DNA of 40,278 nt from a virus (IMGVR_UViG_3300009609_000035:1-40278), one strand, 5' to 3'; positions 16,301 through 33,010 are shown, counted from the stretch's first letter. Notes: generated by a model not told the origin, from the letters alone. Numbers and translations: made by a program.

Positions 16301-16755
16301 CCCCCGGATTCGCTGGTCTTCCTGAAGAAGTTTATTTGGATGTGATTCCTGCTGGGAATGGCAGCGTCCCACAAAAGATTTGGAGAGTGGCTTTGTTCGA
16401 TGTTTGGGGGAATGAAATCGAAACGAACATCACTGATCCTCTTGCTGATGGTGGGGTCATTCCTCAAGTTTACGCTACTCCAACCGGACTGGCTATTATC
16501 ACTAACATTCCTGATCTTGTAATTGTCATAGATTTTACTGACAACACCTTTGGTGGAGCTGCCCATGAGGTTTGGCGGAAAGTGGGAGCGGGGGCTTATT
16601 CCCTTGAAGCAACCCTTCCTCAAACCATTGTCGAGTATGAGGACCATGGTGTTACTTCAGGAGTGACTTACGCTTATAAAGTAAGAGCTATCAATCCCGC
16701 TGGATCGGAATTGGGTTTCTCAATGTTTTCCAATGAAGATTCAGCGGTCAATTAA
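13288..16755 (+). CDS. J-like tail tip / host specificity protein
   Basis: The 1155-residue protein is the size and place of a siphovirus central tip protein. Residues 1-75 look like the small beta-grasp tip assembly domain (GGITIRQWLKRV, LVNGNPIWRRDFDN). A hydrophobic segment follows at 82-100 (ILIAVLLIASVALTLVVG), then a J-like core beginning GRFNDTRLGEPIEVNYGRNR and YPSLAARPFFQY. After about residue 735 several fibronectin-III-like modules follow (PSISSLTLAQLDGQIPIISASW; VTYAYKVRAINPAGSELGFS). In lambda the C-terminal part of J sets receptor choice. ATG 13288 is preferred over GTG 13267 because it gives the natural N-terminus MAFILEVPNP. Confidence 0.8.
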   Translation: MAFILEVPNPFPPFAGMQKHQHPGGITIRQWLKRVKGEDFSEFEQPTICLVNGNPIWRRDFDNIIQPNDLIHFVAAMGTGAQILIAVLLIASVALTLVVGPPTTPGEEPNSDPFFSAKGRFNDTRLGEPIEVNYGRNRIYPSLAARPFFQYQGDDQFQHSLFCIGQGTYDVEAVQIGDSALDDFQEADYEIIEPGGSVTLFRADVVTSIEVASQTLLAPNEEGFDYVGPFPVSPGGTTVDRIEIDIVFPKGLYLLVEGNLYRDNIIVEFEHRLIDNLGNPLGNWTVLFNRTVRAKTTSPFRRSIARVVLEGRYEVRGRRLSPNENTGYHIIGSVQWEAMRGFVVHVDSAIDYGNVTLLAVRIRSTNNLNSSSQDKFNVIATRKLPIRYSGAGFTEPVATRSIVWAFVDVFRATYGARITDEAFYDWGALETLDALYESRGEHFDWSFRDPITVWEAAKAIARVGRAVPLITGSLITMKRDGPLTVPVALFNTDNIVKGSLQTEVKLWEPDDFDSVRVEYTDPDTGYEQEQIKCTLPGDLGNNPEDIRIPGIQDRTHAYHEGLYLAAIRRYLRENITFATGMEGFIPSYGDLVVISHDVMRWGQSGYILTVEDMSGSNVFLLHVSEPLRFETVGIYQIYLRSKSSDLLGPLTATATTDPRIIRVVMDDSEVDFLLGGETEPMLFVFGLIGQITKFGRLVKIEPQGGELIRMTLVNEEALIHSFDELEAPELNEVTLPPEVPELPSISSLTLAQLDGQIPIISASWPAVFGAQYYVVQFSTSEQTDSNDDEDVIWEEAGTTTRASIQIQVSIGIIQVRVAAVGSAGQGPWIYGTIEVGMVAELVQHIPWMALDWGVRWRSRTDLRGWVVRVYDNSDPESPVLKRTLQKAPSQSEYEYDYDMASADGNLVRDHLVEVDALVLNPLTNTIGPLGFERSLALHNEVPAHPVHLDHQILFDESGAIGYVYHLTWVTPAEADLITVKVWMSESFVFDPEAPPVPQYEFTAGTPGFAGLPEEVYLDVIPAGNGSVPQKIWRVALFDVWGNEIETNITDPLADGGVIPQVYATPTGLAIITNIPDLVIVIDFTDNTFGGAAHEVWRKVGAGAYSLEATLPQTIVEYEDHGVTSGVTYAYKVRAINPAGSELGFSMFSNEDSAVN

Positions 16756-16762
16756 GATAATA
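16755..16762 (+). promoter_or_regulatory. AGATAATA element before the secreted protein gene
   Basis: The 8-mer lies directly after the J-like stop and 5 bases before ATG 16768. That distance is the one seen at other copies, which favours 16768 over 16762 as the start. Confidence 0.4.
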
Positions 16763-16767
16763 TGAGT

Positions 16768-17172
16768 ATGAAAAAATTAGCATTGTTATTCGTCGCAGCC
16801 GCAATCCTGATCGTGCAGGCTGCTCCCATCAAATCCAACCGCTCGCCTCACAAGAGAACGCAGACGGTTCAAACCCAAACAGTCATTCAGTTGACCTTTG
16901 TGAATGACACCCCGTTCAACGTCTCGGCGCAATACGGATTGGAATTTGTCATCCCTCCGGGGATCAACAAGTATCAATTCCTTTTCAATCCGAATACGAT
17001 TTTGGTGTTTGGAATCTTTCAGGGAGATGACAAACCCCACTACGGTTACGGATCAATTTATCCAGATCAGATGACAGGGAACAACCAGGTGGTTGTTTAT
17101 CATAGTGGGACTGACAGTTATCACATCCAATTTGATAACTACTTCAACGCACCGTTTGAAGTGCTGCCTTAA
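16768..17172 (+). CDS. secreted or periplasmic protein of unknown function
   Basis: The 134-residue product begins MKKLALLFVAAAILIVQAA, a standard signal peptide likely cut after VQA or QAA. The mature part has a basic linker (SNRSPHKR), a Thr/Gln run (TQTVQTQTVIQLTF) and then beta strands rich in aromatic residues (VIPPGINKYQFLFNP, YGYGSIYPDQMTG). It has no Cys pairs or known catalytic motif. An alternative start 6 bases upstream (16762) adds only MS. It is last in the rightward block and meets the leftward block head-on: TTAA at 17169-17172 contains both stop codons. Possible roles are an exclusion or receptor-modifying protein, but this is a guess. Confidence 0.6.
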   Translation: MKKLALLFVAAAILIVQAAPIKSNRSPHKRTQTVQTQTVIQLTFVNDTPFNVSAQYGLEFVIPPGINKYQFLFNPNTILVFGIFQGDDKPHYGYGSIYPDQMTGNNQVVVYHSGTDSYHIQFDNYFNAPFEVLP

Positions 17173-17741
17173 ATTTCAATAATCTTTCCAGTGGCCAGAT
17201 TGTTATTGTGTGTAACAAAGATAATTTGCAGGCCCATATCTTTGGACAACTGCTCCAGCATCGACCGCACGTTGTCCTGATAGTGTGCGCTCACAAACTT
17301 AAAGGGCTCATCCATCACCACCACCTTGCTTAGGCGAGGTCGGTGCAGGACTAGACAAGCAATCCTCAGTGCAAAGGCTGCTACATCGACCACCCCCCCT
17401 CCAGAAGCGGTTAGAGGATCGACATTGAGATCACCACGAAGGAATCGGAGGTGGGCTTCGGTGCGTCCTCGCTTGCGTTCAAACTCGATGTGGAACTGGT
17501 AGGGATCGTCTTCGAATACGGTGCTCAGACAGGACGACACCACCTCTGAAATCTTCTTGTGGGCTCGCTGCTGGACTGCCTGGGCCAAGTGCTGGAGGAT
17601 CTCTTGAGCGTCCTGGGTCCGCTTGAGGGTATTCTCAGCCTTGATCAATTCCTTCTCCTCCCTTTTTATGGATTCTTTCAGAGAGTTGAGTCGGAAGGAC
17701 AACTCGTGGATGTATGAATCTTCGAAGGCAAAGTCGATCAT
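17169..17741 (-). CDS. C-terminal half of a split SbcC/Rad50-like ATPase
   Basis: The 190-residue protein contains only the second lobe of an SMC/Rad50-type ATPase. Residues 1-65 are a coiled-coil arm, then come the ABC signature TASGGGVVDVAAFALRIA (111-128), Walker B with catalytic Glu VVVMDEPF (140-147), and the switch His in IFVTHN (His178). There is no Walker A. That motif sits in the protein at 20583-21638, so the two must pair to make an ATP site. It is last in the leftward operon. Similar stand-alone C-halves are known beside phage SbcCD-like genes. Confidence 0.8.
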   Translation of the reverse strand: MIDFAFEDSYIHELSFRLNSLKESIKREEKELIKAENTLKRTQDAQEILQHLAQAVQQRAHKKISEVVSSCLSTVFEDDPYQFHIEFERKRGRTEAHLRFLRGDLNVDPLTASGGGVVDVAAFALRIACLVLHRPRLSKVVVMDEPFKFVSAHYQDNVRSMLEQLSKDMGLQIIFVTHNNNLATGKIIEI

Positions 17742-17786
17742 ATCCGCACTGTCATGTTTTGAGAGGCATCCTCGATTCCCTGGGTG

Positions 17787-18041
17787 CTACGAATCATCGG
17801 TTTTCCATTTCTTTTCGTATTCCCGCATCGCCTTATCGAATTCCTTCTCAGCTTTGTCTTTTTTCGACTGCAAGTCTTCGAGCAGTGCCTTTGCTTCCTT
17901 AAGGGTCTTGCAGTCGTATTCATTCTTGAGTTGAATAATGAGCTGCTCGTAGGCACCTTTCGCCCGCTGTGCTTCGGACTTGGCTGAGTCAACATCCTTC
18001 TTCAGTCGGCGATACAGTTCTTCTGAAACTATTTCTGACAT
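17787..18041 (-). CDS. small coiled-coil protein
   Basis: The 84 residues are almost wholly helical and charged, with heptad-like spacing from RRLKKDVDSAKSEAQRAKGA to AEKEFDKAMREYEKKW. A single Cys lies at the centre (YDCKTL). It is located just before the C-half of the split SbcC/Rad50, so it could supply or contact the missing coiled-coil arm. This is inference from position and composition. It overlaps the upstream gene by 13 bases. Confidence 0.6.
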   Translation of the reverse strand: MSEIVSEELYRRLKKDVDSAKSEAQRAKGAYEQLIIQLKNEYDCKTLKEAKALLEDLQSKKDKAEKEFDKAMREYEKKWKTDDS

Positions 18042-18403
18042 ATTTTAATAATGTCTTCCAATGTTGTTACGAGAATCCAAACACGCTTCCTTAGGACGTT
18101 CCGTTCCGTCTCAACTTCTTTGTGGTGACGGACAAACTCTTGGAAGTTGTCAAGCAAGTCATCGGACATCGTGCTTTTGCCGTCGTTGAATTCGTTCTTA
18201 ATTCCTGATTCAATAGCTGCTAGGGTTTGTTTCAACCTCGAAACTCTGTCAGCTTCAGTGGCGTCTTCCTGAATCCGTTTTATTAGTTGTTCGACATCAT
18301 GTCCAGGTGGTTGAGACCCGTCTGATCCCGGAGGTCGCCAACCCAACATCGAGTTGGCGACAGTCTCTCCAACTTCATTCAACCATTCGGCAGCGGGCTT
18401 CAT
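18029..18403 (-). CDS. helical protein of unknown function
   Basis: A 124-residue, soluble and mainly helical protein. It opens MKPAAEWLNEVGETVANSM, has a Gly/Pro-rich loop (PPGSDGSQPPG, about residues 24-34), then long amphipathic helices ending VWILVTTLEDIIKICQK. I do not recognise a family. ATGA overlap with the upstream gene and 13-base overlap with the next place it firmly in the operon. Confidence 0.6.
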   Translation of the reverse strand: MKPAAEWLNEVGETVANSMLGWRPPGSDGSQPPGHDVEQLIKRIQEDATEADRVSRLKQTLAAIESGIKNEFNDGKSTMSDDLLDNFQEFVRHHKEVETERNVLRKRVWILVTTLEDIIKICQK

Positions 18404-18648
18404 ATTTTCCTAAAACATCTTTGGAATTCCTCATCAGGCATGAGGGTTGTTTGCAAACTGTCCACGGCACAGATGGCCCACTCACCCGTTCTGGCTTTCA
18501 CACCCGAGGCCGCTCTCCACACATCTTTATCTTCAGTCGGTGTGAAGATATTCGCGACCCACTTCGGGATGTATTCCGCTTCAGGATCAAACTGCCACGC
18601 TGCCACGTTGATGTGAGTGCCAAAAGTTGCTTGGTGGGTAGCAATCAT
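18400..18648 (-). CDS. small conserved-type phage protein
   Basis: An 82-residue protein with a mixed pattern: FGTHINVAAWQFDPEAEYIP, a middle charged turn, and the ending WAICAVDSLQTTLMPDEEFQRCF. The last segment, Ala-Val-Asp followed by a short acidic helix, resembles small proteins commonly found in phage accessory operons, but no function is known. It is coupled at both ends by 4-base overlaps. Confidence 0.6.
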   Translation of the reverse strand: MIATHQATFGTHINVAAWQFDPEAEYIPKWVANIFTPTEDKDVWRAASGVKARTGEWAICAVDSLQTTLMPDEEFQRCFRKI

Positions 18649-18722
18649 CGTTCTATTATTAGATTTACAACAATCAATGTTATAAAACAGCCAATAAACA
18701 TTCCAAATACCAAATCACTCAT
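18645..18722 (-). CDS. 25-residue single-helix membrane peptide
   Basis: The reading frame encodes MSDLVFGMFIGCFITLIVVN followed by LIIER: one uninterrupted hydrophobic helix with charged ends. It exactly fills the gap between two genes. Its ATG overlaps the upstream stop (ATGA at 18719-18722) and its TGA overlaps the downstream ATG (18645-18648). This double coupling, the same as between its neighbours, is strong support that it is translated. The role is unknown. Tiny phage membrane peptides can act in lysis control or exclusion. Confidence 0.65.
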   Translation of the reverse strand: MSDLVFGMFIGCFITLIVVNLIIER

Positions 18723-18940
18723 GTTTTGAACCCCGGTGGCTGTTTCGGTTCCTGGATCAGTTCCAGCTCAAAGTCGGAATGCCACTTTTCACCTAAATCA
18801 TGAGCCCATGTGACTAAATAAAAAGTCGTGCCCCTGCGAATGCAGATCCCAGTGATGATCCCTTGCTGGTCACCGACAGCAAATTTCACCTTCTGTCCGA
18901 TTGAAAAGTTAATCAGTTGCTTCCAGACTTCTTCAGTCAT
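18719..18940 (-). CDS. small SH3-like beta protein of unknown function
   Basis: The 73-residue protein is beta-rich: LINFSIGQKVKFAVGDQQGI, ITGICIRRGTTFYLVTW, then EKWHSDFELELIQEP. The strand order around a VGDQQGIITGI turn resembles small SH3-like barrels found in phage accessory genes, a fold-level guess only. Coupled by ATGA to the genes on both sides. Confidence 0.55.
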   Translation of the reverse strand: MTEEVWKQLINFSIGQKVKFAVGDQQGIITGICIRRGTTFYLVTWAHDLGEKWHSDFELELIQEPKQPPGFKT

Positions 18941-19125
18941 AGTGGTTGATACTTAAAAGTCAAAGTTGCTGGAACTAAATCTGGTGTGACTTGTTTATGG
19001 TAGACGTGCAAAAGGGTGGGATACCTCTCACCTATATGCCCTATGTCAAACATGAAAGGAAGCCCATGCGAGCCAATGCTGACATAGACTTTCATCTTCC
19101 TTACCCGTTTAGCTTTGTTCTTCAT
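18937..19125 (-). CDS. small basic protein of unknown function
   Basis: 62 residues with a basic start (MKNKAKRVRKMKVYVSIGSH) and an aromatic/His-rich end (LLHVYHKQVTPDLVPATLTF). The ATG at 19125 overlaps the nuclease stop. A second ATG 30 bases in (MKVYVSIGSH) is possible, but the overlap favours the first. No family recognised. Confidence 0.5.
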   Translation of the reverse strand: MKNKAKRVRKMKVYVSIGSHGLPFMFDIGHIGERYPTLLHVYHKQVTPDLVPATLTFKYQPL

Positions 19126-20027
19126 TTTATCGCCTCCAATATTATCTGTTTTGTTTCCTCGTCCATGTCGGCTTTGCGCAGATGGTTTTCCACTGCCTCA
19201 CGGAAGTTCAGCCCGTGCTCGCCCAGTTCTTGAAGTTGCTCAATAAAGGCTTGCATATCAATAGGCACGTTCTTGCGTTCCTCTGGCTTCTCGTGGAACA
19301 CATCCCCTGAAGTGTCCAGCTCTTTCCTTTTAATGGAACCATCACTGTAGATAAATCCAACAGAAGGTTTATATTTGATTTCATCAGACTTGCGTCGAAT
19401 AAAAGTCCCACAGTTCAGAACAGTCGTCCCTGTCTTAAGGTTTTTTAAGAAGCCTTCATGGTTGTCCCCAAACACCGCAACACCATAATCTTTCAGAGGC
19501 TTCATAAATTCGACTAGGCGTGCTTCTGCTGGCGCACCAGGATAGCCAGATTTTACTGTCCAACAGTATTGGTGAATGAGGGCAATCTGAGGAGCATTTT
19601 TCCGACGTGCTCGGGGTGGTGTGATCTTTTCGTTCCAACCAAAGCCATAAACAGACATTTCATGCACTGTAAACGGACAATTAGGAGTCAGGTTTAGGAT
19701 CCTACCTGTTTCCACCAGCACACCGTAACCGCTGCGGTGCATATGGTCCATCCGATGGTTTGGAAGGTCATGCTGTCCAGCCACACAGAGGCACCTTTCA
19801 GGGAGGTGTTCCAAGGCAAAGTTAATTAGTTCTGGTGGTGGATTCCACTTATCAAAAATATCACCAGCAATCAGGACAGGGAATTTGGGATGCGGGCAAA
19901 GATCCCTTACCTGTTGCAGGTATCCAGCCTGCACGTCCAACCAGTCCTTGTCAGCACGGCAAGCGGGAGCAGTCAAAGACAGGTGCAAGTCCGCTATTGC
20001 TATTGCTATAGGAGACGGTGCTTTCAC
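19122..20027 (-). CDS. SbcD/Mre11-like nuclease
   Basis: The 301-residue protein has the calcineurin-like phosphoesterase motifs of Mre11/SbcD in order: IADLHLSL near the N-terminus, GDIFDKW, GQHDLPNH, LIHQYCW and VFGDNHEGF. These residues bind two metal ions that cleave DNA. The third motif has Gln where classical Mre11 has Asn (GNHD). Start: GTG 20027 is chosen. It overlaps the stop of the upstream repeat ORF as GTGA and has GAGG 8 bases upstream. A longer in-frame version (to ATG 20195) would add 56 residues of Val alternating with Glu/Arg/Val/Met/Gly encoded by the hexamer repeat, which is unlikely in this enzyme. It should partner the split SbcC halves. Confidence 0.8.
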   Translation of the reverse strand: MKAPSPIAIAIADLHLSLTAPACRADKDWLDVQAGYLQQVRDLCPHPKFPVLIAGDIFDKWNPPPELINFALEHLPERCLCVAGQHDLPNHRMDHMHRSGYGVLVETGRILNLTPNCPFTVHEMSVYGFGWNEKITPPRARRKNAPQIALIHQYCWTVKSGYPGAPAEARLVEFMKPLKDYGVAVFGDNHEGFLKNLKTGTTVLNCGTFIRRKSDEIKYKPSVGFIYSDGSIKRKELDTSGDVFHEKPEERKNVPIDMQAFIEQLQELGEHGLNFREAVENHLRKADMDEETKQIILEAIK

Positions 20028-20227
20028 GACCTCGACCTCGACCCTGACCCTGACCACGACCCTGACCTCGACCCTGACCTCGACCATGACCTCGACTTCG
20101 ACCTCGACCCTGACCTCGACTTCGACCACGACCCTGACCTCGACCATGACCCTGACTTCGACCCCGACTTCGACTTCGACCTCAACCCCGACCATTCAAA
20201 CCCAATTTGTAGAATAACAGCGTTCAT
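20024..20227 (-). CDS. 67-residue Ser-Arg/Lys/Gly/Trp dipeptide-repeat protein
   Basis: The ORF begins at ATG 20227, directly after the TAG of the upstream gene, with MNAVILQIGFEWSGL. It then consists of Ser alternating with Arg, Lys, Gly or Trp to the end. Its TGA overlaps the SbcD GTG (GTGA, 20024-20027), the coupling style of this operon. It resembles an RS-domain, disordered and highly basic, which could bind nucleic acid. The G/A variation at the first base of each GAC-type unit (on -) is silent in this frame and would change residues in the Val frame. Function is unknown. Confidence 0.5.
   Translation of the reverse strand: MNAVILQIGFEWSGLRSKSKSGSKSGSWSRSGSWSKSRSGSRSKSRSWSRSGSRSGSWSGSGSRSRS
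20028..20195 (-). repeat. 28-unit hexanucleotide tandem repeat (NNGGTC on -)
   Basis: On + the units are GAC followed by CTC, CCT, TTC, CAC, CAT or CCC (one unit begins AAC). Twenty-eight uninterrupted 6-base units fit 20028-20195. Length changes would keep all frames. On - the units look like GAGG ribosome sites, and several contain ATG or GTG (ATG at 20087, 20147, 20195; GTG at 20057, 20129). Confidence 0.9.
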
Positions 20228-20575
20228 CTATTTCTGAGAGCGGGGGAGTTTACAATCAAAGATAACAGCATCAATTATTGAATCACGCCCAATCACGACT
20301 TTACTGTCGTCAGGATATGGCTCGACTTCATTGAACTTGCCTTCGGACACTGCTTGGGCAAAACGCCCGTCATCGGCAATCCACGCAGCATCTTCAAGGA
20401 CGAGTTCCTGCGGATAGACTGCAACCAGTCTTCCTGTGAAGTGGTGTGTCACCGTCCGAATGAAGTAGCCCTTTCCGATTTGATAAGGATGACTTGAAGT
20501 TGACTGGTTTTGATTCCCAAACAAGGCAGCGATTTCCCGTGCTTCTTTGATTGTTAGTTCTTCGACGTTCTTCAT
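20228..20575 (-). CDS. conserved-type phage protein of unknown function
   Basis: 115 residues starting at ATG 20575, which has an AGATAATA element 5 bases upstream. The longer frame to 20731 lies inside the SbcC N-half gene and is rejected. The sequence LTIKEAREIAALFG, then PYQIGKGYFIRTVTHHFTGR, LVLEDAAWIADDGRFAQAV and a C-terminal VIGRDSIIDAV matches a small protein seen in many phage genomes whose function is not known. It sits between the split SbcC N-half and the repeat ORF. Confidence 0.7.
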   Translation of the reverse strand: MKNVEELTIKEAREIAALFGNQNQSTSSHPYQIGKGYFIRTVTHHFTGRLVAVYPQELVLEDAAWIADDGRFAQAVSEGKFNEVEPYPDDSKVVIGRDSIIDAVIFDCKLPRSQK

Positions 20576-20580
20576 ACTTT

Positions 20581-20588
20581 TATTATCT
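20581..20588 (-). promoter_or_regulatory. AGATAATA element between SbcC N-half and the next gene
   Basis: The 8-mer begins in the stop region of the SbcC N-half and ends 5 bases before ATG 20575. Confidence 0.4.
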
Positions 20589-21638
20589 AATTGGGTTGTG
20601 ACATAAAGGACAGAGTTTTCCCTTCGTGTTTTTCTCAAACATTTTCTCAGCATGTTCCAGCGCAGTGCCAGCAGTTTCAATTCGTGTGAATCGTTCACTC
20701 GCTTGTTCAATGATCTGTTCCAGCCCTTCAATTTGCAGATCGAGATCGTGCCAAATGTTAAACGATTTTTCTACTGAGGAGAAATCTGGCGGAGGTCGAG
20801 AAGCCTTTTCCCGCTCACTGAGATCGATGAGAACTGACTCAAGAGCAGTCGTGGCCTGTTGAGTATCAAGGGCGAGTCGTAGTCGAGTGAGAACATCCTC
20901 GCCATCTGCGCCCTTCTCTCCCAGTAGACTCGCTTGCTGACGAAGCTGATTTGCGTTCCTTCCGAGTGTGACCAGTTGATTGCAAGTTTCTTCGGCATTT
21001 AGAAATCTTTCGTTCGCTGCCTTTAATTTTTTAAACTCTTCGATCCGATCCTGCTGTGGCTTCAGTTGCTCGTATTCCTTCTTTACCTCTTCGAGACGTT
21101 CATGGCAAAGGGTCTTTCTTTCCTGGGCTTGTCGGACGGCCGAGGAAATATTCGAGAGAGTTGTATCGATGACGGAGAGATCCACCACGGCATTGAGACG
21201 ACGCGAGACTTCGCCGGCTGTTTCGTTAAACCAAAAAGGAGAGTCGTGCTGGGACTGGAAATTGATTTCGTTGACGTTGAGCAGTTTGACGATGTCTTGT
21301 GGCACCCCTTGCCCGAATGCTTTGAGTTCCTCTCCGTTCAGTTCGTAGGTGTTGAGACCCGAGGTCCCTTTGATACGGGTGATGTCGTGGGAAAGATGAT
21401 TGTCTCCAGTCTCCTTGGCAGTTTGGCAGACAGTCAGAATGACTTTCGTTTTCTTGGCACCCTCCCGAATGAATTCGTCGCCTCCGAGATCGTTCAAACA
21501 CACCCAGCGAAGTGCCCGCAGGATCGAAGACTTGCCTGCATCGGTGGGACCCTTCAGACTGGTAATCGTTTTGGAGAAATCGATGGTGATCTCCTCGTGC
21601 CCTTGGAAATCAACCAGTTTTATCGCGACCAATCGCAT
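20583..21638 (-). CDS. N-terminal half of a split SbcC/Rad50-like ATPase ending at a zinc hook
   Basis: The 351-residue protein begins MRLVAIKLVDFQGHEEITID and has Walker A GPTDAGKSS (30-38), a Q-loop region NEINFQSQHDSPFWF (about 123-137) and then coiled coil from about residue 160. It stops right after CPLC (Cys343, Cys346), the CxxC of a Rad50 zinc hook. In full-length SbcC/Rad50 the hook is in the middle, followed by the return coil and the second ATPase lobe. Here that second half is a separate gene at 17169-17741. The break at the hook apex keeps each half structurally meaningful. First gene of the leftward operon. Confidence 0.85.
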   Translation of the reverse strand: MRLVAIKLVDFQGHEEITIDFSKTITSLKGPTDAGKSSILRALRWVCLNDLGGDEFIREGAKKTKVILTVCQTAKETGDNHLSHDITRIKGTSGLNTYELNGEELKAFGQGVPQDIVKLLNVNEINFQSQHDSPFWFNETAGEVSRRLNAVVDLSVIDTTLSNISSAVRQAQERKTLCHERLEEVKKEYEQLKPQQDRIEEFKKLKAANERFLNAEETCNQLVTLGRNANQLRQQASLLGEKGADGEDVLTRLRLALDTQQATTALESVLIDLSEREKASRPPPDFSSVEKSFNIWHDLDLQIEGLEQIIEQASERFTRIETAGTALEHAEKMFEKNTKGKLCPLCHNPIR

Positions 21639-21644
21639 TGCCCT

Positions 21645-21652
21645 TATTATCT
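21645..21652 (-). promoter_or_regulatory. AGATAATA element before the SbcC N-half
   Basis: This is the first element of the leftward operon, 6 bases before ATG 21638. No convincing -35 hexamer lies 16-18 bases upstream on -. It faces away from the rightward promoter at 21700. Confidence 0.45.
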
Positions 21653-21699
21653 CGAAATCATGGGCAAATCACATCATAAAAGAAATTCAAAGAAAGTTC

Positions 21700-21727
21700 T
21701 TGCACTCTCTGAATAAATTAGTAAAGT
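21700..21727 (+). promoter_or_regulatory. rightward promoter TTGCAC-N16-TAAAGT
   Basis: The divergent intergenic region holds TTGCAC (21700-21705) and TAAAGT (21722-21727). The flanking bases (AGTTCTTGCACT...TGAATAnATT...GTAAA) recur almost identically at 27909-27940. The ATG at 21735 is 7 bases after the -10, so the transcript may be leaderless. Confidence 0.6.
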
Positions 21728-21734
21728 TGTGGAC

Positions 21735-22091
21735 ATGAAGAAAAACCAAATAATGAAAAACCAAACCAAACCAAAGCACCCCTTATCGGACATCAACCCC
21801 GGAGGGTTGATAATGGTCAATCCGTGGATGGCAATTCCATCCGACGAGGCAGAAGCCAACGTGAAGGCTGCTCAAGACGCTGGCGACATGGAGGTGATCG
21901 CTCTGTCCTATGAGACCATTGCTGCCGCTCCTGATCTGTTCAAAGAACTTGATGCAATTCTAGCAGCACTGGAAGCTGGCGAAACAGTTACAATCGAACC
22001 CGGCAGTGTCAAAGCACATGCAATCGGAACAGCAGTTGGAAAAGCCAACGGGACTGTCACCACCCTCACGCAACTCAACAAAACAAAGTAA
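21735..22091 (+). CDS. unknown early protein
   Basis: 118 residues from ATG 21735 (GTG 21729 would add two). The N-terminus is basic and low-complexity (MKKNQIMKNQTKPKHPLSDI), then PGGLIMVNPWMAIPSDEAEA, an Ala/Glu-rich helical section (ALSYETIAAAPDLFKELDAI) and a Thr-rich end. No family recognised. It is the first gene behind the strong-looking rightward promoter, so it is probably among the first made after infection. The stop shares a base with the next start. Confidence 0.55.
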   Translation: MKKNQIMKNQTKPKHPLSDINPGGLIMVNPWMAIPSDEAEANVKAAQDAGDMEVIALSYETIAAAPDLFKELDAILAALEAGETVTIEPGSVKAHAIGTAVGKANGTVTTLTQLNKTK

Positions 22092-22360
22092 TGGACCGAG
22101 ATAAATTACTCAAAACCGTCCGTGAACTATTCAAGGACAAACCGTCCATCATCGTTCGTGAGCAGGCATTCCTTGGATCGGGTGGTGCTCGCAGTGACTT
22201 TGAATCACTTGTTGTGCCCCCGAGTCACATCGTTGTGGTTGTTGAAGACCACCCCGATCTTGCGACAGCCACAGGTTGGGTTTCGTTACAATTGTCTAAG
22301 AGCAAAATCCCATTCAAACAAACCTACGAACACGGGTGGATTGTGTTCGTCTTAACTTAA
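22091..22360 (+). CDS. unknown small protein
   Basis: 89 residues. LLKTVRELFKDKPSIIVREQ is a likely helix followed by strands SHIVVVVEDH and the closing YEHGWIVFVLT. Compact alpha/beta protein with no Cys pair, membrane helix or recognisable catalytic motif. It overlaps the previous gene by one base (TAATG) and is therefore in the same transcript. Confidence 0.55.
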   Translation: MDRDKLLKTVRELFKDKPSIIVREQAFLGSGGARSDFESLVVPPSHIVVVVEDHPDLATATGWVSLQLSKSKIPFKQTYEHGWIVFVLT

Positions 22361-22428: not shown

Positions 22429-22968
22429 ATGAACCGAAAAATGCCGATTGATCCCAACGAAGTGTTCCCCCAGGTCGAAAACATGCTCTACTCCCTCGCG
22501 TGGAGCACAGCCAAAAAGTATCCAGTCACTTTTGAAGAAGCGAGGTCCGAGGCTTACTTCGCCTTCATGAAAGCCTGCACGGAATACAGCAGGGCCAAAT
22601 CCAAAGGCGGGAAGTTCTCTTCCTGGTGCTACTTCAAAACCTGGACCCATTTGAAGACGTGGATCACCAAGCGAACGAACGACCGACTTGTGTTCATGGA
22701 AAACAACGACCGTGAAGATACCATGGCCATTGCAGCGCCTGCGACGGTTTCTTCTCATATTGAATTGGTGGAGGACCTGTCCGAAGATGCTCGTGAGATG
22801 GTCAACATGCTTGTCGAGACCCCCGCAGAATTGTTGGGGTTGTCAATGTCCCCCAAACGATTCATGAAAAAAGTGAAAGAATATCTCGTGCGGCAGGGAC
22901 GGAAGCCCTCGCAGGTGGAGCGGGCACACGAAGAACTTCGTGTTCGTTTTCAGGAAGCTTGGGCTTAA
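22429..22968 (+). CDS. putative RNA polymerase sigma-like factor
   Basis: The 179-residue protein has a sigma-70 region-2-like core: VENMLYSLAWSTAKKYPVTF, EEARSEAYFAFMKACTEYSR and GKFSSWCYFKTWTHLKTWIT, with the aromatic/basic helix that in sigma factors contacts core polymerase and opens the -10 DNA. The C-terminal part (PAELLGLSMSPKRFMKKVKE) is helical and basic but is not a clear region 4. A factor with only region 2 would be expected to read mainly -10-type elements, which fits the AGATAATA motif in this window (inference). It could also be a sigma-like DNA-binding protein without transcription activity. Confidence 0.6.
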   Translation: MNRKMPIDPNEVFPQVENMLYSLAWSTAKKYPVTFEEARSEAYFAFMKACTEYSRAKSKGGKFSSWCYFKTWTHLKTWITKRTNDRLVFMENNDREDTMAIAAPATVSSHIELVEDLSEDAREMVNMLVETPAELLGLSMSPKRFMKKVKEYLVRQGRKPSQVERAHEELRVRFQEAWA

Positions 22969-26774: not shown

Positions 26775-26954
26775 ATGAAGAGAGATTCACTGTTGATTCA
26801 GGGTGTTCCTGAAAAGATTAAGAGAGACTTCAAGTCGGCCTGCGCCCGTCGAGGCACCACCATGAAGAAAGCCTTAATCCTTTTCATGAAACTGTTTCCC
26901 AAAAACGGATTTGCAAAACTGGGGGCATCGCGAGATAATAAGACGGTAAGTTAA
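26775..26954 (+). CDS. small ribbon-helix-helix-like protein
   Basis: 59 residues. LIQGVPEKIKRDFKSACARR followed by GTTMKKALILFMKLF fits the strand-helix-helix pattern of Arc/CopG-type repressors (xVPxxxKxxFKxxCxxRGxTMxxA). Such proteins dimerise and bind operator DNA. It lies just ahead of a terminator hairpin, so it might control this region. That link is inference. An AGATAATA copy falls inside its last codons (26931-26938). Confidence 0.6.
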   Translation: MKRDSLLIQGVPEKIKRDFKSACARRGTTMKKALILFMKLFPKNGFAKLGASRDNKTVS

Positions 26955-27021: not shown

Positions 27022-27024
27022 CCT

Positions 27025-27891
27025 ATGACAATTCAAGAGATACTCAGTGACCTTAAAGTCGAGTATGTCGAATCGGGACATAGACACACTCGAAGTGGAT
27101 GGCTTCAGCTTCGAAAATGTCCGTTCTGCTCATCGGACAACTACCATCTTGGGTTCAACCTCCAGTCGAAATATTTCTTTTGTTGGCGTTGCCGATGGCA
27201 TTCGGCACCAAAAGTGCTGCAAGCTCTTGGGATGCCCTCAGACAAGGCGAGGGCATCCGTCCATGGTCTTGACACCCTTGGGACGGAAAAACAGCGTCCC
27301 CGGGCAGCCAGGACGCAGGAACCACCCGAAATAGGAGTCCTCACCACGGCACATATTGCCTATTTGGAGAATCGGGGGCTGAATCATGAGGAAATCACTC
27401 AGGTATGGGGGGTCAAGGGGATTGGTTTGGCGTCGAGGTTGAAGTGGAGGATCTACATTCCGATCACCTACCGTGGACGGGTCGTAAGTTGGACCACTCG
27501 GGCGATTGGGGACCGGGTTCCACAGCGATACATTTCGGCTTCTGCGAGTGAGGAAGAGATCAACCACAAGGAACTGATTTACGGTGGGGACTACGTCACT
27601 CACTCGGTGGTGATCTGTGAAGGTCCTTTCGACGTTTGGAAGATAGGTCCGGGGGCCGGCGCAGTGTTTGGAACTGCATTCTCATCGGCTCAAGTTAGAA
27701 AGCTGGCACGGATACCGAGACGGTTTGTCTGCTTCGATTCCTCGAAAGAGGCGCAAGTGGATGCCAGAGAACTGGCCAATCAGTTATCGTGTTTCCCTGG
27801 AATCACCGAGAATCTATTAATCGATTCGAAAGACCCAGGGTGTGCATCTCCCAGGGAAATAAGGCTTATTCGCAAGGTTGCACGTCTCTGA
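27025..27891 (+). CDS. DnaG-type primase
   Basis: 288 residues from ATG 27025. A zinc-binding start has Cys pairs at 32/35 (KCPFCSSDNY) and 53/56 (FCWRCRWHS), as in DnaG. The middle (NRGLNHEEITQVWGVKG) and the TOPRIM segment VVICEGPFDVWKIG with its catalytic Glu follow, then FVCFDSSKEAQVDARE as the second acidic motif. It makes primers for replication. The protein is shorter than DnaG and lacks a helicase-binding C-terminus. Start 26995 (in the terminator) is rejected. Confidence 0.8.
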   Translation: MTIQEILSDLKVEYVESGHRHTRSGWLQLRKCPFCSSDNYHLGFNLQSKYFFCWRCRWHSAPKVLQALGMPSDKARASVHGLDTLGTEKQRPRAARTQEPPEIGVLTTAHIAYLENRGLNHEEITQVWGVKGIGLASRLKWRIYIPITYRGRVVSWTTRAIGDRVPQRYISASASEEEINHKELIYGGDYVTHSVVICEGPFDVWKIGPGAGAVFGTAFSSAQVRKLARIPRRFVCFDSSKEAQVDARELANQLSCFPGITENLLIDSKDPGCASPREIRLIRKVARL

Positions 27892-27940
27892 AAAGATTTT
27901 GAAAATAGTTCTTGCACTGTTTGAATAGATTCAGTAAATT
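27878..27940 (+). promoter_or_regulatory. tandem rightward promoters
   Basis: The main one is TTGCAC (27912-27917), 17 bases, TAAATT (27935-27940), nearly identical to the promoter at 21700. ATG 27950 is 9 bases on. A second, poorer copy (TTGCAC 27878-27883, N17, GAAAAT 27901-27906) overlaps the primase end. Both share the CTCTGAA/TTTGAA middle. Confidence 0.55.
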
Positions 27941-27949
27941 CATTTCGTT

Positions 27950-28192
27950 ATGACAAGAAATCAAATAGTCAAAGTTGTTTGGCCGAACCACCAAGACTTG
28001 AACTTTGGTGAGATTCAGCAAGTCGCCCGCGAGACTCAAGAGGCGTTGTGCAACGCACTTCGAAAAGTCCGAGGTGAGAAGATTCGGAAGCTGGGTCAAA
28101 AGAAAAAGAGTCTTCGATGGTTTTGCGGTTTTTGTCTAAAGGCAAATCACGCATCGGCCAAAGAATGCCAACACTGCTGCCCAAACGGATAA
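27950..28192 (+). CDS. small zinc-ribbon protein
   Basis: 80 residues. A helical, basic N-terminal part (RETQEALCNALRKVRGEKIR) ends in a ribbon RWFCGFCLKANHASAKECQHC with CxxC and CxxC pairs. It could bind nucleic acid. It stands alone behind its own promoter(s), suggesting early expression. No family assigned. Confidence 0.6.
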   Translation: MTRNQIVKVVWPNHQDLNFGEIQQVARETQEALCNALRKVRGEKIRKLGQKKKSLRWFCGFCLKANHASAKECQHCCPNG

Positions 28193-28198
28193 CAAAAA

Positions 28199-28206
28199 AG
28201 ATAATA
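28199..28206 (+). promoter_or_regulatory. AGATAATA element before the MNRFG leader
   Basis: 4 bases separate it from ATG 28211. Together with the following ATGAACCGATTCGGA it forms a block repeated at 28654-28681. Confidence 0.45.
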
Positions 28207-28210
28207 CGTT

Positions 28211-28237
28211 ATGAACCGATTCGGAGATTGGTTATGA
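28211..28237 (+). CDS. possible 8-residue leader peptide MNRFGDWL
   Basis: ATG 28211 reads MNRFGDWL and stops in TGA overlapping ATG 28234. The first five codons and the upstream element are the same as the start of the gene at 28667. It may be a coupling leader for the following gene or a leftover of a duplicated start region. Confidence 0.35.
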   Translation: MNRFGDWL

Positions 28238-28650
28238 AAGAAACAATTTGTTCCTGCCACAAGTGCGTTAAGATGTGTGAGGATCGTCCTTGTTGGCCCA
28301 CGCCTGAGGAAGCCGATCAATTAATTGAAAACGGGTTTGCAGATAAATTGATGCTGGATTGGTGGAGTGCCTGTGGACCCGACGATGAAGACATTTTCCT
28401 GCTCGGGCCTGCCATTGTCGGACGTGAGGGCCAATATGCCCCCAGTTTTCCCTGGGGGCGTTGCAATCTCTTAACTGAAAATGGAATGTGCTCGCTCCAC
28501 GATAAAGGACTAAAACCTTTGGAAGGTCGTTTGGCAAATTGCAAAACGGATCAGCCAAAACTGCACGGTTTTGTAGCCAGGAAGTGGGATTGTGAACTGG
28601 GACGTGCAGTAGTCGCCAGATGGAAAAACATGATGGGTTTGGAGGATTAA
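28234..28650 (+). CDS. YkgJ-like Cys-cluster (Zn/Fe-binding) protein
   Basis: 138 residues from ATG 28234 (the longer start at 28117 lies in another gene). CSCHKCVKMCEDRPCWPTPE at the N-terminus and GRCNLLTENGMCSLHDKGLK, LEGRLANC further on form the Cys layout of YkgJ-type metal-chelating proteins. The middle LDWWSACGPDDEDIFLLGPA is typical of phage versions. Function unknown. A metal-binding role is inferred only from Cys spacing. Confidence 0.6.
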   Translation: MKETICSCHKCVKMCEDRPCWPTPEEADQLIENGFADKLMLDWWSACGPDDEDIFLLGPAIVGREGQYAPSFPWGRCNLLTENGMCSLHDKGLKPLEGRLANCKTDQPKLHGFVARKWDCELGRAVVARWKNMMGLED

Positions 28651-28653
28651 TAA

Positions 28654-28661
28654 AGATAATA
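28654..28661 (+). promoter_or_regulatory. AGATAATA element before the gene at 28667
   Basis: 5 bases before ATG 28667, directly after the TAA of the YkgJ-like gene. Confidence 0.45.
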
Positions 28662-28666
28662 ACATT

Positions 28667-28984
28667 ATGAACCGATTCGGAAACTCAATGGAAAACCTCA
28701 GGTGCTCGGGTGCCAGTCCCGAACGAAACGACATTGCCGACTTCTACGAGGAGCGGGATCGCCAGGAATCCTTCAGGGCACGAGACGAAGCCAAGGCAGA
28801 ACGTAATCGTGTTTGGAGTCTCATCCAAAACAAAGCACATCTGTATTCGACGGCTTACAGCCTCCAGACAGGTGAATATATTCAGATTCTCGGTGTCCGC
28901 ACTGTGGGTGTGTTTGCCTGCCTGATGCGGGACGGGACGGAAAAGGACATTGGCTGCGAACTCCTTCACGACTACCGGGCATGA
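28667..28984 (+). CDS. unknown protein with MNRFG start
   Basis: 105 residues. The N-terminus MNRFGNSMENLRCSGASPER is followed by an acidic/basic helix (DFYEERDRQESFRARDEAKA) and a beta C-terminal part (GEYIQILGVRTVGVFACLMR). ATG 28688 (MENLRCSG) is an alternative start, which would make MNRFG a leader as at 28211. Overlaps the next gene as ATGA. Confidence 0.55.
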   Translation: MNRFGNSMENLRCSGASPERNDIADFYEERDRQESFRARDEAKAERNRVWSLIQNKAHLYSTAYSLQTGEYIQILGVRTVGVFACLMRDGTEKDIGCELLHDYRA

Positions 28985-29256
28985 AACCCAAATCGTTCAT
29001 GGATCAGATCGAAGAGTTAAACCCTCCTGAGAATCCTGCCAAGATGAGTGACAGTCGAGCCGAGGACTACGTGGCACAGTTCGGAGACAGTTCCTGGGAG
29101 TTGGATGCAGTGGCACCAGACCAGCTCGCAGAACTGGTCCGCAACGCAGTGTCAGAATTACGCGACGATGTTTTGTGGGGGAGATCCGTTGATAAGGAGA
29201 ACACTGGGAAAGAACGTCTTCAACGGATTGCGGATAACTGGGAGGACAACGATTGA
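28981..29256 (+). CDS. small phage protein of conserved type
   Basis: 91 residues. YVAQFGDSSWELDAVAPDQL followed by AELVRNAVSELRDDVLW matches a short phage protein pattern ('...WELDAL.P..L..LI...I...RD...W') of unknown function. The rest is charged and helical. Coupled to neighbours on both sides by 4-base overlaps. Confidence 0.6.
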   Translation: MKPKSFMDQIEELNPPENPAKMSDSRAEDYVAQFGDSSWELDAVAPDQLAELVRNAVSELRDDVLWGRSVDKENTGKERLQRIADNWEDND

Positions 29257-29540
29257 CCCCATTCCAACGCGAGGAACTGCTTCGGGCACGGATGATCATC
29301 GACCATCTATTGAACGAGCCCTTGCTTGAAGACCTTCCAGGAGCATTTCGTTTTGGTCAGCTCTGCCACGACACTGGATACACAACCAACGAAATCCGAT
29401 CCCGGAGCCGGCCCAGGGAACTGGTCGAAGCCAGAATTAAAATTATTAAGACAATGTCGGCCGAGGGATTCTCCATTCGGAAACTGTGCCGGCTGATGAA
29501 TCGATCTGTTTGGGGAATCAAACACTTGTTGAGAAAATAA
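29253..29540 (+). CDS. HTH protein resembling DnaA domain IV
   Basis: 95 residues starting at TTG 29253, which overlaps the upstream TGA. ATG 29292 is an alternative. The C-terminal half RSRPRELVEARIKIIKTMSA followed by FSIRKLCRLMNRSVWGIKHL matches the DnaA C-terminal DNA-binding domain layout (REIVEAR... then a helix-turn-helix ending in an xxLRK). There is no AAA+ domain. It may mark an origin or act as a regulator. Origin binding is inference. Confidence 0.55.
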   Translation: MTPFQREELLRARMIIDHLLNEPLLEDLPGAFRFGQLCHDTGYTTNEIRSRSRPRELVEARIKIIKTMSAEGFSIRKLCRLMNRSVWGIKHLLRK

Positions 29541-29557
29541 ACTTGTGTTGGGCGGGG

Positions 29558-29676
29558 ATGGAAAGCAATGTGTCCGTCGTTCAGACTATGTCTGAGACTG
29601 GTTGTGAAAAACCAGAAGGTGACGTAAGTTGACTTTGGCTGTTATTTTTGAGGGTTCGGGCACGTCACCGCCTTTT
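29558..29676 (+). ncRNA. structured intergenic RNA with terminator; possible small RNA or leader
   Basis: Three successive inverted repeats: TCAGAC-TAT-GTCTGA (29581-29595), CTGGTT-GTGAAA-AACCAG (29598-29615) and GGTGACGT (29618-29625) with ACGTCACC (29662-29669), the last followed by GCCTTTTTT. The third encloses a 36-base loop. A 24-residue ORF (ATG 29558 to TGA 29632, MESNVSVVQTMSETGCEKPE...) overlaps the first two stems and has a GGCGGGG site before it, so a coding alternative exists. The region 29541-29715 has no other gene. Confidence 0.4.
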
Positions 29677-29715
29677 TTCACCCCTTGAGAGTAGCAGCCT
29701 TTTTATTTAACCAAT

Positions 29716-29937
29716 ATGGTAATTGCTCTTACGACTAAAGGACCTGACCTTGAAATAACCAAGGATACCCGAATATCTGAAGAAATTATTGGAGTTTACC
29801 TCAGACTTATAGGCATCTACTCCAACGGAAAGCGTGATTTTGAAATCGGTCACCTAAAAGACTGGAAACCCCAATACATCAAAGCTATTCGGCAATTAAA
29901 AAGATACGGATACATCAATTGTCGGAGGTGGTTGTGA
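29716..29937 (+). CDS. small winged-helix-like protein
   Basis: 73 residues. ISEEIIGVYLRLIGIYSNGK, then FEIGHLKDWKPQYIKAIRQL and KRYGYINCRRWL form a helix-turn-helix plus wing of the type found in replication initiator accessory proteins. It resembles the N-terminal part of the next gene, so the two may be distant paralogues. Its end overlaps the next GTG start (GTGA). Confidence 0.55.
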   Translation: MVIALTTKGPDLEITKDTRISEEIIGVYLRLIGIYSNGKRDFEIGHLKDWKPQYIKAIRQLKRYGYINCRRWL

Positions 29938-30770
29938 TTTCCAAAGTAGTCCGTCATGAAAAGGATTTCTCCATTGTTGACAACGCCCCTTGGAGAGATT
30001 CTCGATTATCATTGAAGGCAAAAGGTCTGCTTATCTACCTCCTCACCAAGAAAGAAAATTGGGAGGTCCGAATGGGGGATTTGTTGAATCGTCACAAAAA
30101 CAAGAAGGCAGCGATATGGAGTGCTTTGAGAGAGTTGAGGGATGCGGGATACGCCAAAAATGAAACAGTTCGAAGTAAAGACGGAACTCGATTGGCTGGA
30201 CGCAAATGGGTGATCTATGAACTGGCGCAAGAGGTGAAAACAAAGGAAAAATCCAAAAACCATCAGTCACACCGAAAATCAGTGTCACTGAAATCCAATG
30301 CCGCAGAAAATCGACCCCTTAGTAAAGATAGAGTAATAAATAATAAACTCAGTGGCGGAAATCGTTCCGCCACGGATTCAATTGGTTTTCACTTGAATGG
30401 AGGAAAGGAGACAACGCCATTCATCCTCAAGTGTGTGAAAGTATTAGAAGAACATATAAGAGTATCCAGAAAGATAAATCCCCAATTCAAAAGGTCCAAA
30501 TGGGTTCATGAGTTTGAACTACTCTTGGATTCCATAGACGGCGACAAGGATCGCCTGAAACGAGTTCTGAAAACTTTCATCAACACCCCCCATGTAAAAT
30601 ACAAGCCCCAAGCCGAGAGTGCTGATGGTTTTCGGGAGAAGTTCAGCAAGATCGAAAGATGGTGTCATGAAAACGCCAATGAGGAAATGAATGCTCCGAC
30701 TGTGACCAGAACTACCAAAGGGAATCTGATCGAAACAACTCTCCATTACCCGAAGGGGTTCAGAGATTGA
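29934..30770 (+). CDS. winged-helix replication protein (DnaD-like helicase loader or initiator)
   Basis: 278 residues from GTG 29934, which has GGAGG 5 bases upstream and overlaps the previous TGA. TTG 29919 is the alternative. The N-terminus KAKGLLIYLLTKKENWEVRM followed by KKAAIWSALRELRDAGYAKN is a winged helix of the phage replication-initiation type. A basic linker (residues about 110-150) leads to a helical C-terminal part (PFILKCVKVLEEHIRVSRKI, WVHEFELLLDSIDGDKDRLK) resembling DnaD-like loaders. It sits just before the DnaB-like helicase and overlaps it by 4 bases, the usual order for a loader or initiator. Confidence 0.65.
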   Translation: MISKVVRHEKDFSIVDNAPWRDSRLSLKAKGLLIYLLTKKENWEVRMGDLLNRHKNKKAAIWSALRELRDAGYAKNETVRSKDGTRLAGRKWVIYELAQEVKTKEKSKNHQSHRKSVSLKSNAAENRPLSKDRVINNKLSGGNRSATDSIGFHLNGGKETTPFILKCVKVLEEHIRVSRKINPQFKRSKWVHEFELLLDSIDGDKDRLKRVLKTFINTPHVKYKPQAESADGFREKFSKIERWCHENANEEMNAPTVTRTTKGNLIETTLHYPKGFRD

Positions 30771-32176
30771 AAACCACCCGTTACCAAAGCAGCGAGGAAC
30801 GAACGATCCTGATTGCACTCCTGGTCCACGATGGGGTTCTGGCAAAAGTCTACCGTCACATGGGTCAGGATCACAGTCGCCCATTCAAGAGCAAGTGGTC
30901 CAATCTGATCGCCAAATGGTGTTTCGACTACTTCGCCAAATATCAGAGAGCCCCTCGCAAAGCCATTGAAGGAATCTTTTCAGAGTTTGCCCAATCCAGC
31001 CAGGACAAGGAATCGGTTGACCTCGTGGAAAACTTTCTGAGTGGGTTGGACGAAGAGTATCGCAGTATCGCCAAATCCATCAACGAGGACTACATCGTTG
31101 ACAAAGCTTCTGAATATTTTGATAGAATTCGACTTGCCCGTATGTCAGAAGCAATCGGGGACGCTTTGGAGAAAAACGATTTGGAGGAAGCCGCTCGGGC
31201 TCATTCCGAATACGAGCGCATCGAATTCGCCACTACGGGATGGCAGGACCCCCTCAGTCTGGAATTTCTCAAAGAGGTTTTTACTCGAAAGGATGACGAC
31301 GAACGATTGGTTGAATTTCCCGATGCCCTGGGAAAGTTCCTTTCTCCTTATCTCAAACGAAACAGTTTCATTTCCTTTGCCGGTCCTTCCAAGCGTGGCA
31401 AATCTTTCTGGCTTCAGGAGATTGTTTGGCGGGCTCTCAAACAACGTCGTCGCGTTCTCTACTACGTGCTGGGGGACATGTCCAAGGACGATGTCGGTCA
31501 TCGGTTGTGCATGAGGATGACTCGGAAACCTTTGCAGGAGGCAGAGGTTCACATTCCGGTTCGACTCCAAACTCCTGAATCACGGGACGATTCCGCCAAC
31601 GTCAAACTCAAAACTGAAAACCGATCCGGCTTGACCCCCAGGGACATTCGATTGGCACGAGAGAAATTTCTGGCCACCACGGGATCGAAGGAGTCCAGAT
31701 TGCATTTGAAGGTCGAAGGAGGAGATGTGATCTCAGCCAGCCAGATCGAGCAGGACATGAAACAATTCGGAAAGTTGGAGCAACCCCCTGACCTTGTGGT
31801 TGTTGATTATGCTGATCTACTGGCTCCTGAACCCCACACCAAAAATCAGGACTTTCGTCATCAGATCAATGCAACGTGGAAGATCCTCAGGCGTATCGCA
31901 CTGAGGAATCATTGTCTGGTGGTGACGGCAACCCAGACCGCTGCCACGGGCTACAGTGCATGGATTATTCGGAAGAAGGATTTTTCCGAGGATCGTAGAA
32001 AAAATGACCATGTGAGCGGGATGATTGGAATCAACCAGACCGAGAATGAGAAAGAGATGGGGATTTATCGATTAAATTGGATTGCGTTGAGAAACGGCAA
32101 GTGGTCCGAATCCCAGGTTGTTTGGACGGCTGGGGAACTCGCCATTGCCTGTCCTTGCATCATTTCCTCTTTCTGA
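30767..32176 (+). CDS. dnaB-like: DnaB-like replicative helicase
   Basis: 469 residues from TTG 30767, overlapping the previous TGA (TTGA). A helical N-terminal domain (about 1-155) precedes the RecA fold: Walker A in SFAGPSKRGKSFW (203-215), VLYYVLGDMSKDDVG, Walker B in LVVVDYADLLAPE (about 343-355) and HCLVVTATQTAATG. DnaB-type proteins unwind DNA ahead of the polymerase. The Walker A form SKRGKS differs from the common GxxGxGKT but keeps Lys and Ser. Confidence 0.8.
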   Translation: MKTTRYQSSEERTILIALLVHDGVLAKVYRHMGQDHSRPFKSKWSNLIAKWCFDYFAKYQRAPRKAIEGIFSEFAQSSQDKESVDLVENFLSGLDEEYRSIAKSINEDYIVDKASEYFDRIRLARMSEAIGDALEKNDLEEAARAHSEYERIEFATTGWQDPLSLEFLKEVFTRKDDDERLVEFPDALGKFLSPYLKRNSFISFAGPSKRGKSFWLQEIVWRALKQRRRVLYYVLGDMSKDDVGHRLCMRMTRKPLQEAEVHIPVRLQTPESRDDSANVKLKTENRSGLTPRDIRLAREKFLATTGSKESRLHLKVEGGDVISASQIEQDMKQFGKLEQPPDLVVVDYADLLAPEPHTKNQDFRHQINATWKILRRIALRNHCLVVTATQTAATGYSAWIIRKKDFSEDRRKNDHVSGMIGINQTENEKEMGIYRLNWIALRNGKWSESQVVWTAGELAIACPCIISSF

Positions 32177-32210
32177 ATAAAATAAATTTGGTTGTTCTGA
32201 ATCAATCCAT

Positions 32211-32218
32211 AGATAATA
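32211..32218 (+). promoter_or_regulatory. AGATAATA element in the gap before 32265
   Basis: TTGGTT (32188-32193) stands 18 bases before GATAAT, the best -35 partner seen for any copy. The GTG at 32227 (13 codons, ending in an ATGA overlap with 32265) could be a leader peptide; otherwise the gap 32177-32264 holds no gene. Confidence 0.4.
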
Positions 32219-32264
32219 AGAAAGACGTGAGAAACAACGAAACAAAACTGGAGAGCATAAAACG

Positions 32265-32921
32265 ATGAAAGTTACAAAAGCAGCCGCAGCCATTTTTCTG
32301 GTGGCTATTGGGATGTCCAGAGCCGATACCTGGGGAGTTGAAAAACTCACGGAGGCTTTGAAGCACACCGCCAGAAACAAGGAGGAATCCGAGATCCCTG
32401 AGGATCGGAGGAAGTCGTTCAAAAAACTGGTGGAGGCTGGCGACGACATCGAGGTGTTTGACAACGGCAAGGCCCCCGATCCTGAAAGGATGAAGGATGC
32501 GAAGAAGAAGCGGGTGGCCCGGCTGGTGAGCAACCAAAAGAGCCACACCAAAAACGTGAAATCAAAGAGGAAGAAGAAACAGAAACCGAAACACAAAGCC
32601 ATCAAGAAGGACAAGAAGCCCCGTGACTCTTTTGGTTGCATCCTGGGATCGATCTCAGCCAGAGTGAATGCTGTGGTCAACGGGAACTGGATGGACGAGG
32701 AAGAGATCGCCAAGAAGGCTGGCATGTCCTTGAAGAAGGCTCGGGGTCGTCTCTACTTTGCGGCTGACGATGGTGTTTACGAACGTCGTCGGCTGATTCA
32801 GTATCGGGTGATTCCGGGTGCGGCTGAGAAGAGAGCCCAAAAGAATTCGAAGCACCGGGTCCACAAGGTTCACAAGCCTCAGGGTGCCAAAACGGTCGTT
32901 GCGGAGAAAGAGGCTGCCTGA
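32265..32921 (+). CDS. Lys-rich, histone-like protein with winged-helix-like C-part
   Basis: 218 residues. The centre (about 85-120) is a Lys/Arg-rich tract (KSKRKKKQKPKHKAIKKDKK), flanked by a helical acidic N-terminal part and a C-terminal domain NGNWMDEEEIAKKAGMSLKK followed by ARGRLYFAADDGVYERRRL, which looks like a winged helix. The end is again basic. The N-terminus MKVTKAAAAIFLVAIGM looks hydrophobic but is probably part of a helix, with ATG 32313 as another start. A DNA-binding or compaction role is inferred from charge only. Confidence 0.5.
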   Translation: MKVTKAAAAIFLVAIGMSRADTWGVEKLTEALKHTARNKEESEIPEDRRKSFKKLVEAGDDIEVFDNGKAPDPERMKDAKKKRVARLVSNQKSHTKNVKSKRKKKQKPKHKAIKKDKKPRDSFGCILGSISARVNAVVNGNWMDEEEIAKKAGMSLKKARGRLYFAADDGVYERRRLIQYRVIPGAAEKRAQKNSKHRVHKVHKPQGAKTVVAEKEAA

Positions 32922-32956
32922 TTTCAAAAGGAGGATGCTCGGGGTGCTGATAACAA

Positions 32957-32997
32957 GAGACCGCGACTTGATAAAGGTTGCGGTCTCTTTCTTTTTC
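32957..32997 (+). terminator. Rho-independent terminator
   Basis: GAGACCGCGAC (32957-32967) pairs with GTTGCGGTCTC (32977-32987), 11 bp with one G-T pair and a 9-base loop, followed by TTTCTTTTTC. It ends the transcript of the Lys-rich protein. Confidence 0.85.
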
Positions 32998-33002
32998 AAA
33001 AG

Positions 33003-33010
33003 AGATAATA
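33003..33010 (+). promoter_or_regulatory. AGATAATA element after the terminator
   Basis: It lies 5 bases past the T-run and is followed by AGGAGG and ATG 33021. Here a normal ribosome site is present, so this transcript need not be leaderless. Confidence 0.45.

Follow-up and report, generated by a model that had tools for sequence, protein, structure and literature searches.

A recurrent octamer as a probable one-element phage promoter

The octamer AGATAATA recurs in front of genes in an uncultured phage and its relatives, and we consider it probable that it acts as a one-element -10 promoter whose transcripts would start at or near the start codon, with a phage sigma-like protein and RNA polymerase as its reader. 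The window, that is, the whole stretch of DNA analysed, is a linear IMG/VR virus record of 40,278 nt (IMGVR_UViG_3300009609_000035:1-40278). The octamer is enriched, strict, biased in position and strand and conserved at orthologous starts, and the protein encoded at 22429 has a sigma region-2 fold; from these features of the sequence we infer initiation at the sites, leaderless starts and recognition by this protein. A promoter role is likely by itself, and recognition by the phage sigma-like protein is plausible.

An alignment of the DnaB-like helicase was used to scan for relatives and returned 74 related viral loci. One of them, L002, is a second record of the same virus (99.9% identical), in which all five AGATAATA sites of its span are present; the diverged relatives share 38-53% helicase identity with the window phage, and the whole records G004 and G005 measure 74-75 kb. 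Our search found no close cultured relative, and a scan of host genomes gave only distant matches in assorted MAGs and no host call.

The octamer is strict and lies at gene junctions

The original prediction counted at least nine copies in the window. Exactly nine exact copies were found, with one coordinate corrected from 26931 to 26933, against 0.41 expected (mean of 100 dinucleotide shuffles; maximum 3, none of the 100 reaching 9), and AGATAATA ranks first among the window's 8-mers in over-representation. The nine sites, together with the best-conserved target gene, are as follows.

16755..16762, + strand: AGATAATA, 5 nt to the ATG at 16768; the in-frame first ATG (16762) overlaps the word; 3' of a tail-fibre J-like gene
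26933..26940, + strand: AGATAATA, inside the last codons of ORF 26775-26954, upstream of a primase-like gene
28199..28206, + strand: AGATAATA, 4 nt to an 8-codon ORF and 27 nt to the ATG of the ORF ending at 28650
28654..28661, + strand: AGATAATA, 5 nt to the ATG of ORF 28667-28984
32211..32218, + strand: AGATAATA, 3' of the DnaB-like helicase gene, 46 nt to the ATG at 32265
33003..33010, + strand: AGATAATA, immediately 3' of an intrinsic terminator, then GGAGG and the ATG at 33021
21645..21652, - strand: AGATAATA, 6 nt to the ATG of the SbcC-like gene, first in a divergent operon
20581..20588, - strand: AGATAATA, overlapping the SbcC-like stop codon, 5 nt to the ATG of ORF 20575-20228
19140..19147, - strand: AGATAATA, at the 3' end of a metallophosphatase (SbcD-like) gene, 14 nt to the ATG of ORF 19125-18937, with GGAGG between
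20583..21638, - strand: SbcC-like ATPase gene, best-conserved target of AGATAATA

All nine copies are at gene junctions and co-directional with the local genes, and eight are followed within 60 nt by a gene start on the same strand. Five copies had been placed 4-6 nt before an ATG; four of them precede good starts (28654, 5 nt; 21652, 6 nt; 20588, 5 nt; 16755, 5 nt to the second ATG), and at the fifth, 28199, the ATG opens the 8-codon frame, which closes with a TGA overlapping the start codon of the real ORF (the one ending at 28650).

In seven related records we found 35 exact copies against 1.25 expected. Each single-mismatch variant was at or near expectation in these records and TATAAT was depleted (6 versus 18.9 expected), showing that the word is strict, unlike an ordinary -10 hexamer. 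Copies numbered 16 in G004, 14 in G005, 5 in G006, 0 in G007 and 1 in G008; L011 holds 8 (0.09 expected), the L017/L020 clade 6-8, and L024 and L013 4 each. The relatives show a GATAAY core of the word.

We used home-made gene calls to place the 44 copies of the window, G004, G005 and G006. A gene start on the same strand follows within 60 nt in 34 of the 44, against 4.5% expected; because G004 and G005 are closely related, the p value of this pooled test overstates independence. In 43 of 44 the word and the nearest gene share a strand. The commonest placement is 4-8 nt before an ATG: in 20 of 51 non-redundant sites an ORF of 45 codons or more begins with ATG at this distance, compared with 2.4% at random positions. 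For the remaining sites the start is from 9 to over 100 nt away, or no clear ORF lies near, and the distance from word to start ranges overall from 0 to well over 100 nt. Some of the sites are within operons, and a few are in coding sequence (L013, 1125).

Many of the target genes belong to replication and recombination (SbcC-like, clamp, clamp loader, UvsY-like), some sites in G004 flank terminase and head genes, and the QueC-like gene of G006 (39371-40015) has AGATAATA 4 nt upstream. No copy was found in the tail operon of the window.

The sites are conserved at orthologous starts

The SbcC-like start is preceded by AGATAATA in the window, G004, G005 and L011, by AGATAATG in G006 and by AGATAACA in L014. 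The site is thus kept in six phages as AGATAA(T/C)(A/G) with unrelated flanks, and AGATAA is the sole hexamer common to all six upstream regions. As the SbcC-like gene heads a divergently transcribed operon in most of these phages, a promoter is needed there. At the UvsY-like start we found AGATAATA in G004 and G005, CGATAATA in G006, L024 and G008, and AGATAACA in L014. Near the place of the 32211 site, a site is also present in L011, L014, L024, L026 and G004.

Flanking sequences, terminators and ribosome-binding signals

The absence of -35 boxes, noted earlier by eye, was borne out: 38 non-redundant sites show neither a conserved -35 position nor a -35 block of any kind. The flanks 3' of the word are purine-rich and not clearly AT-rich. 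At one window site, an intrinsic terminator precedes the box.

32955..32998, + strand: intrinsic terminator, 15-bp stem followed by TTTCTTTTT, just upstream of the 33003 site

Here the hairpin with its T-run ends 13 nt before the box, and in G004 the end of a 14-bp hairpin lies 10 nt upstream of the AGATAATA of the clamp gene. Among the 27 strict terminators, these 2 stand directly upstream of a box (p=0.005). When the hairpin energies upstream of the sites were pooled, they did not differ significantly from the control, so we take these two clear cases as single cases and rejected terminator adjacency as a general rule.

Shine-Dalgarno sequences before genes were not enriched over internal ATGs in the window, G004 and G005. 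We also rejected the idea that AGATAATA itself is a Shine-Dalgarno-like element: its distance to the start runs from 0 to more than 100 nt, a variation in leader length unlike that of a ribosome-binding element, and two window sites (33003 and 19147) have their own GGAGG between word and ATG.

A sigma-like protein is the candidate reader

22429..22968, + strand: sigma-like protein of 179 aa with a sigma-70 region 2 fold (residues 9-84), candidate reader of AGATAATA

The original prediction of a region-2 sigma-like gene at 22429 was confirmed at the level of the family. The window's own protein, searched alone, matched no sigma Pfam model and gave a weak match to PHROG sigma 351 (E 5.6e-4); Pfam Sigma70_r2 was matched in 11 of 14 orthologs (best 1e-7), and the family profile matches region 2 of RpoS, SigI6 and RpoD in PDB. 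The predicted model is confident over residues 9-84, which match the SigE N-terminal domain (TM 0.83 on target). Sequence search detected no region 4 in the C-terminal part, where the closest orthologs have F-x-E-x-W-A in common at the C-terminus. A protein with region 2 and no recognisable region 4 would explain a single box with no -35.

Of the 14 relatives searched, 13 have an ortholog. The gene itself has no AGATAATA in front, and TTGACA lies upstream of it in three relatives only. It is also found in G007 and G008, which have 0-1 copies of the word, and co-occurrence is therefore no proof of the pairing of sigma and AGATAATA, unless the sigmas of these two phages, which are 25-31% identical, read another word.

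As a separate observation on this locus, in L003 (2-902) and also in L005 an HNH endonuclease gene interrupts the 3' end of the sigma-like gene. The HNH gene is followed by another copy of the sigma C-terminus, and AGATAATA lies at the junction.

Proposed mechanism and a second class of elements

Taken together, we propose that in this family of uncultured tailed phages of about 75 kb AGATAATA would serve as a single -10-type promoter without a -35, governing a regulon made up of genes for replication, recombination and other functions, with some head and packaging neighbours. The reader would probably be the host RNA polymerase core with the small phage sigma-like protein (22429-22968), and the transcripts probably begin 6-8 nt after the box. 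A box ending 4-8 nt before the ATG would then give a leaderless mRNA or a leader of 1-3 nt, and the other sites a real leader; the element is located where expected for the leaderless or nearly leaderless transcripts that had been predicted.

A second class of elements bears on this reading. G004 (loci L096 and L097) and G005 (loci L100 and L103) hold 26 copies of TAAAGTAT-N11-GNCGATA(A/T/G), also written TAAAGTAT-N11-GNCGATAA, matching the sigma28 consensus TAAAGTTT-n11-GCCGATAA (PMC2859248). Most are before small genes, and the -10 octamer is 6-7 nt before the ATG in 21 of the 26. This pattern (a TAAAG -35 block 11 nt before GCCGATAA) is absent from the window. Like sigma28 (FliA) promoters, AGATAATA has a GATAA core; unlike them, its sites have no -35 block. 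The geometry is equal, GATAA-N7-ATG in most sigma28-type copies corresponding to AGATAATA-N5-ATG, and at the E. coli aer promoter transcription starts 6 bp downstream (PMC2859248). This independent match to a known type of promoter, at the same ATG distance, is the best anchor for AGATAATA as a putative -10 element with its start at the codon.

More tentatively, the lineage may have two promoter classes, a sigma28-type class for small, presumably early genes and the strict AGATAATA box read by a region-2-only phage sigma, both with the start codon at or next to +1, so that mRNAs would be leaderless by design and the choice of sigma would set the stage of infection.

Comparison with known systems

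The nearest parallel is gp36 of phiEco32, a sigma without region 4 that reads a single element of about 9 bp (tAATGTAtA, middle/late promoters) with no -35 and a TSS 6-8 bp downstream (PMC8948821). Both systems have a single conserved element, no -35 and a phage-encoded sigma or sigma-like protein without detectable region 4; the word differs, and here the box is so near the ATG that many transcripts would be without a leader. An ATG 4-8 nt after the box would suit a start at the distance known from phiEco32. A tblastn search of phage genomes with a sigma ortholog (E<=0.01) found no phiEco32-like phage.

T4 late promoters (gp55, gp33 and the clamp gp45) lack a -35 and place an 8-bp box one helical turn before the start (PMC2988020). 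The likeness lies in the 8-bp -10 box without -35, in a small divergent region-2 sigma with no region 4 detected by sequence search, and in the clamp and clamp loader that the window phage encodes for itself. The original prediction had drawn this comparison, and the one-box, -10-like, direction-bound layout without -35 stood; the "late" sense was not supported. The word is neither TATAAATA nor the Aeh1-type variant, many targets are replication and recombination genes, with terminase and head neighbours added in G004, and the tail operon has no copies. We therefore rejected membership in the T4-late system; the comparison holds for the proposed mechanism.

In Deinococcus-Thermus a -10 motif, TANNNT, adjoins the ORF and yields leaderless mRNA (PMC12340547). 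These genes likewise have a -10-type element directly 5' of the ORF, with the difference that theirs is a degenerate motif of the bacterial primary sigma and the phage word is a strict 8-mer without TANNNT.

No report of AGATAATA as a phage promoter was found among the papers listed in a literature search outside subscription journals. The box would be a new variant of the switch known from T4 and phiEco32. If the proposal is true, promoter maps for a whole uncultured phage lineage could be read from sequence alone, a minimal pair of sigma and one box would be available for studying recognition of an 8-bp element without -35, and a phage regulon would be tied to leaderless translation in hosts making little use of Shine-Dalgarno sequences.

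Alternative explanations

The word might be a promoter read by a host factor, either an alternative host sigma or the primary sigma aided by a phage co-factor; the 22429 protein would then serve another promoter class or function. We regard this as unlikely, though the foremost of the alternatives. It would accommodate the clear two-box sigma28-type elements of G004 and G005, which make the use of host alternative sigmas probable, the GATAA common to AGATAATA and the sigma28 -10 GCCGATAA, the CGATAATA variants, and the sigma-like genes that exist without enrichment of the word; the lack of any -35 block at 38 sites, the under-representation of TATAAT and a strictness over 8 bp more like that of a dedicated phage factor argue against it. 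Somewhat less likely still is an element acting in RNA, such as a RegA-like translational operator or an endonuclease processing site at junctions. A strand-bound, strict word usually adjoining the start codon, with many sites within operons and a Shine-Dalgarno signal not above background in the window, G004 and G005, would suit such a role. However, between many sites and the start there are 10 to over 100 nt, two immediately follow a terminator, the sole hexamer common to the six divergent SbcC upstream regions is inside the box, and the geometry is that of the sigma28-type -10 in the relatives.

An operator in DNA bound by a phage repressor, or a word with some other role at the DNA level such as packaging or modification, would fit the location at gene junctions and the conservation at orthologous places, but AGATAATA is not palindromic, follows the gene's strand in 43 of 44 copies and peaks 4-8 nt before the ATG, which makes this reading highly improbable. 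Chance or local repeats are a negligible explanation, refuted by the counts: the 28199 and 28654 sites do have some downstream sequence in common, yet no shuffle reached nine copies, and independent relatives repeat the word at orthologous places amid unrelated flanks.

Other features of gene content

Several features of these genomes were observed in passing. The sliding-clamp gene of the window (33442-35262) is split by an intein with an HNH domain, and L006 has apparent intein insertions at other places. A uracil-DNA glycosylase domain and a 3'-5' exonuclease domain form a fusion, and an ORF apart from it encodes the family A polymerase domain (35559-36740 and 36977-38509); G004 shows the same split. 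At 20027-20193 a 6-base repeat array (CGACCT, 27.8 copies) gives the SbcD-like gene an N-terminal extension rich in V-E/V-R. Finally, L006 carries QueD-, QueE- and FolE-like genes (4841-6861), which, with the QueC-like gene of G006, point to a possible 7-deazaguanine DNA modification.
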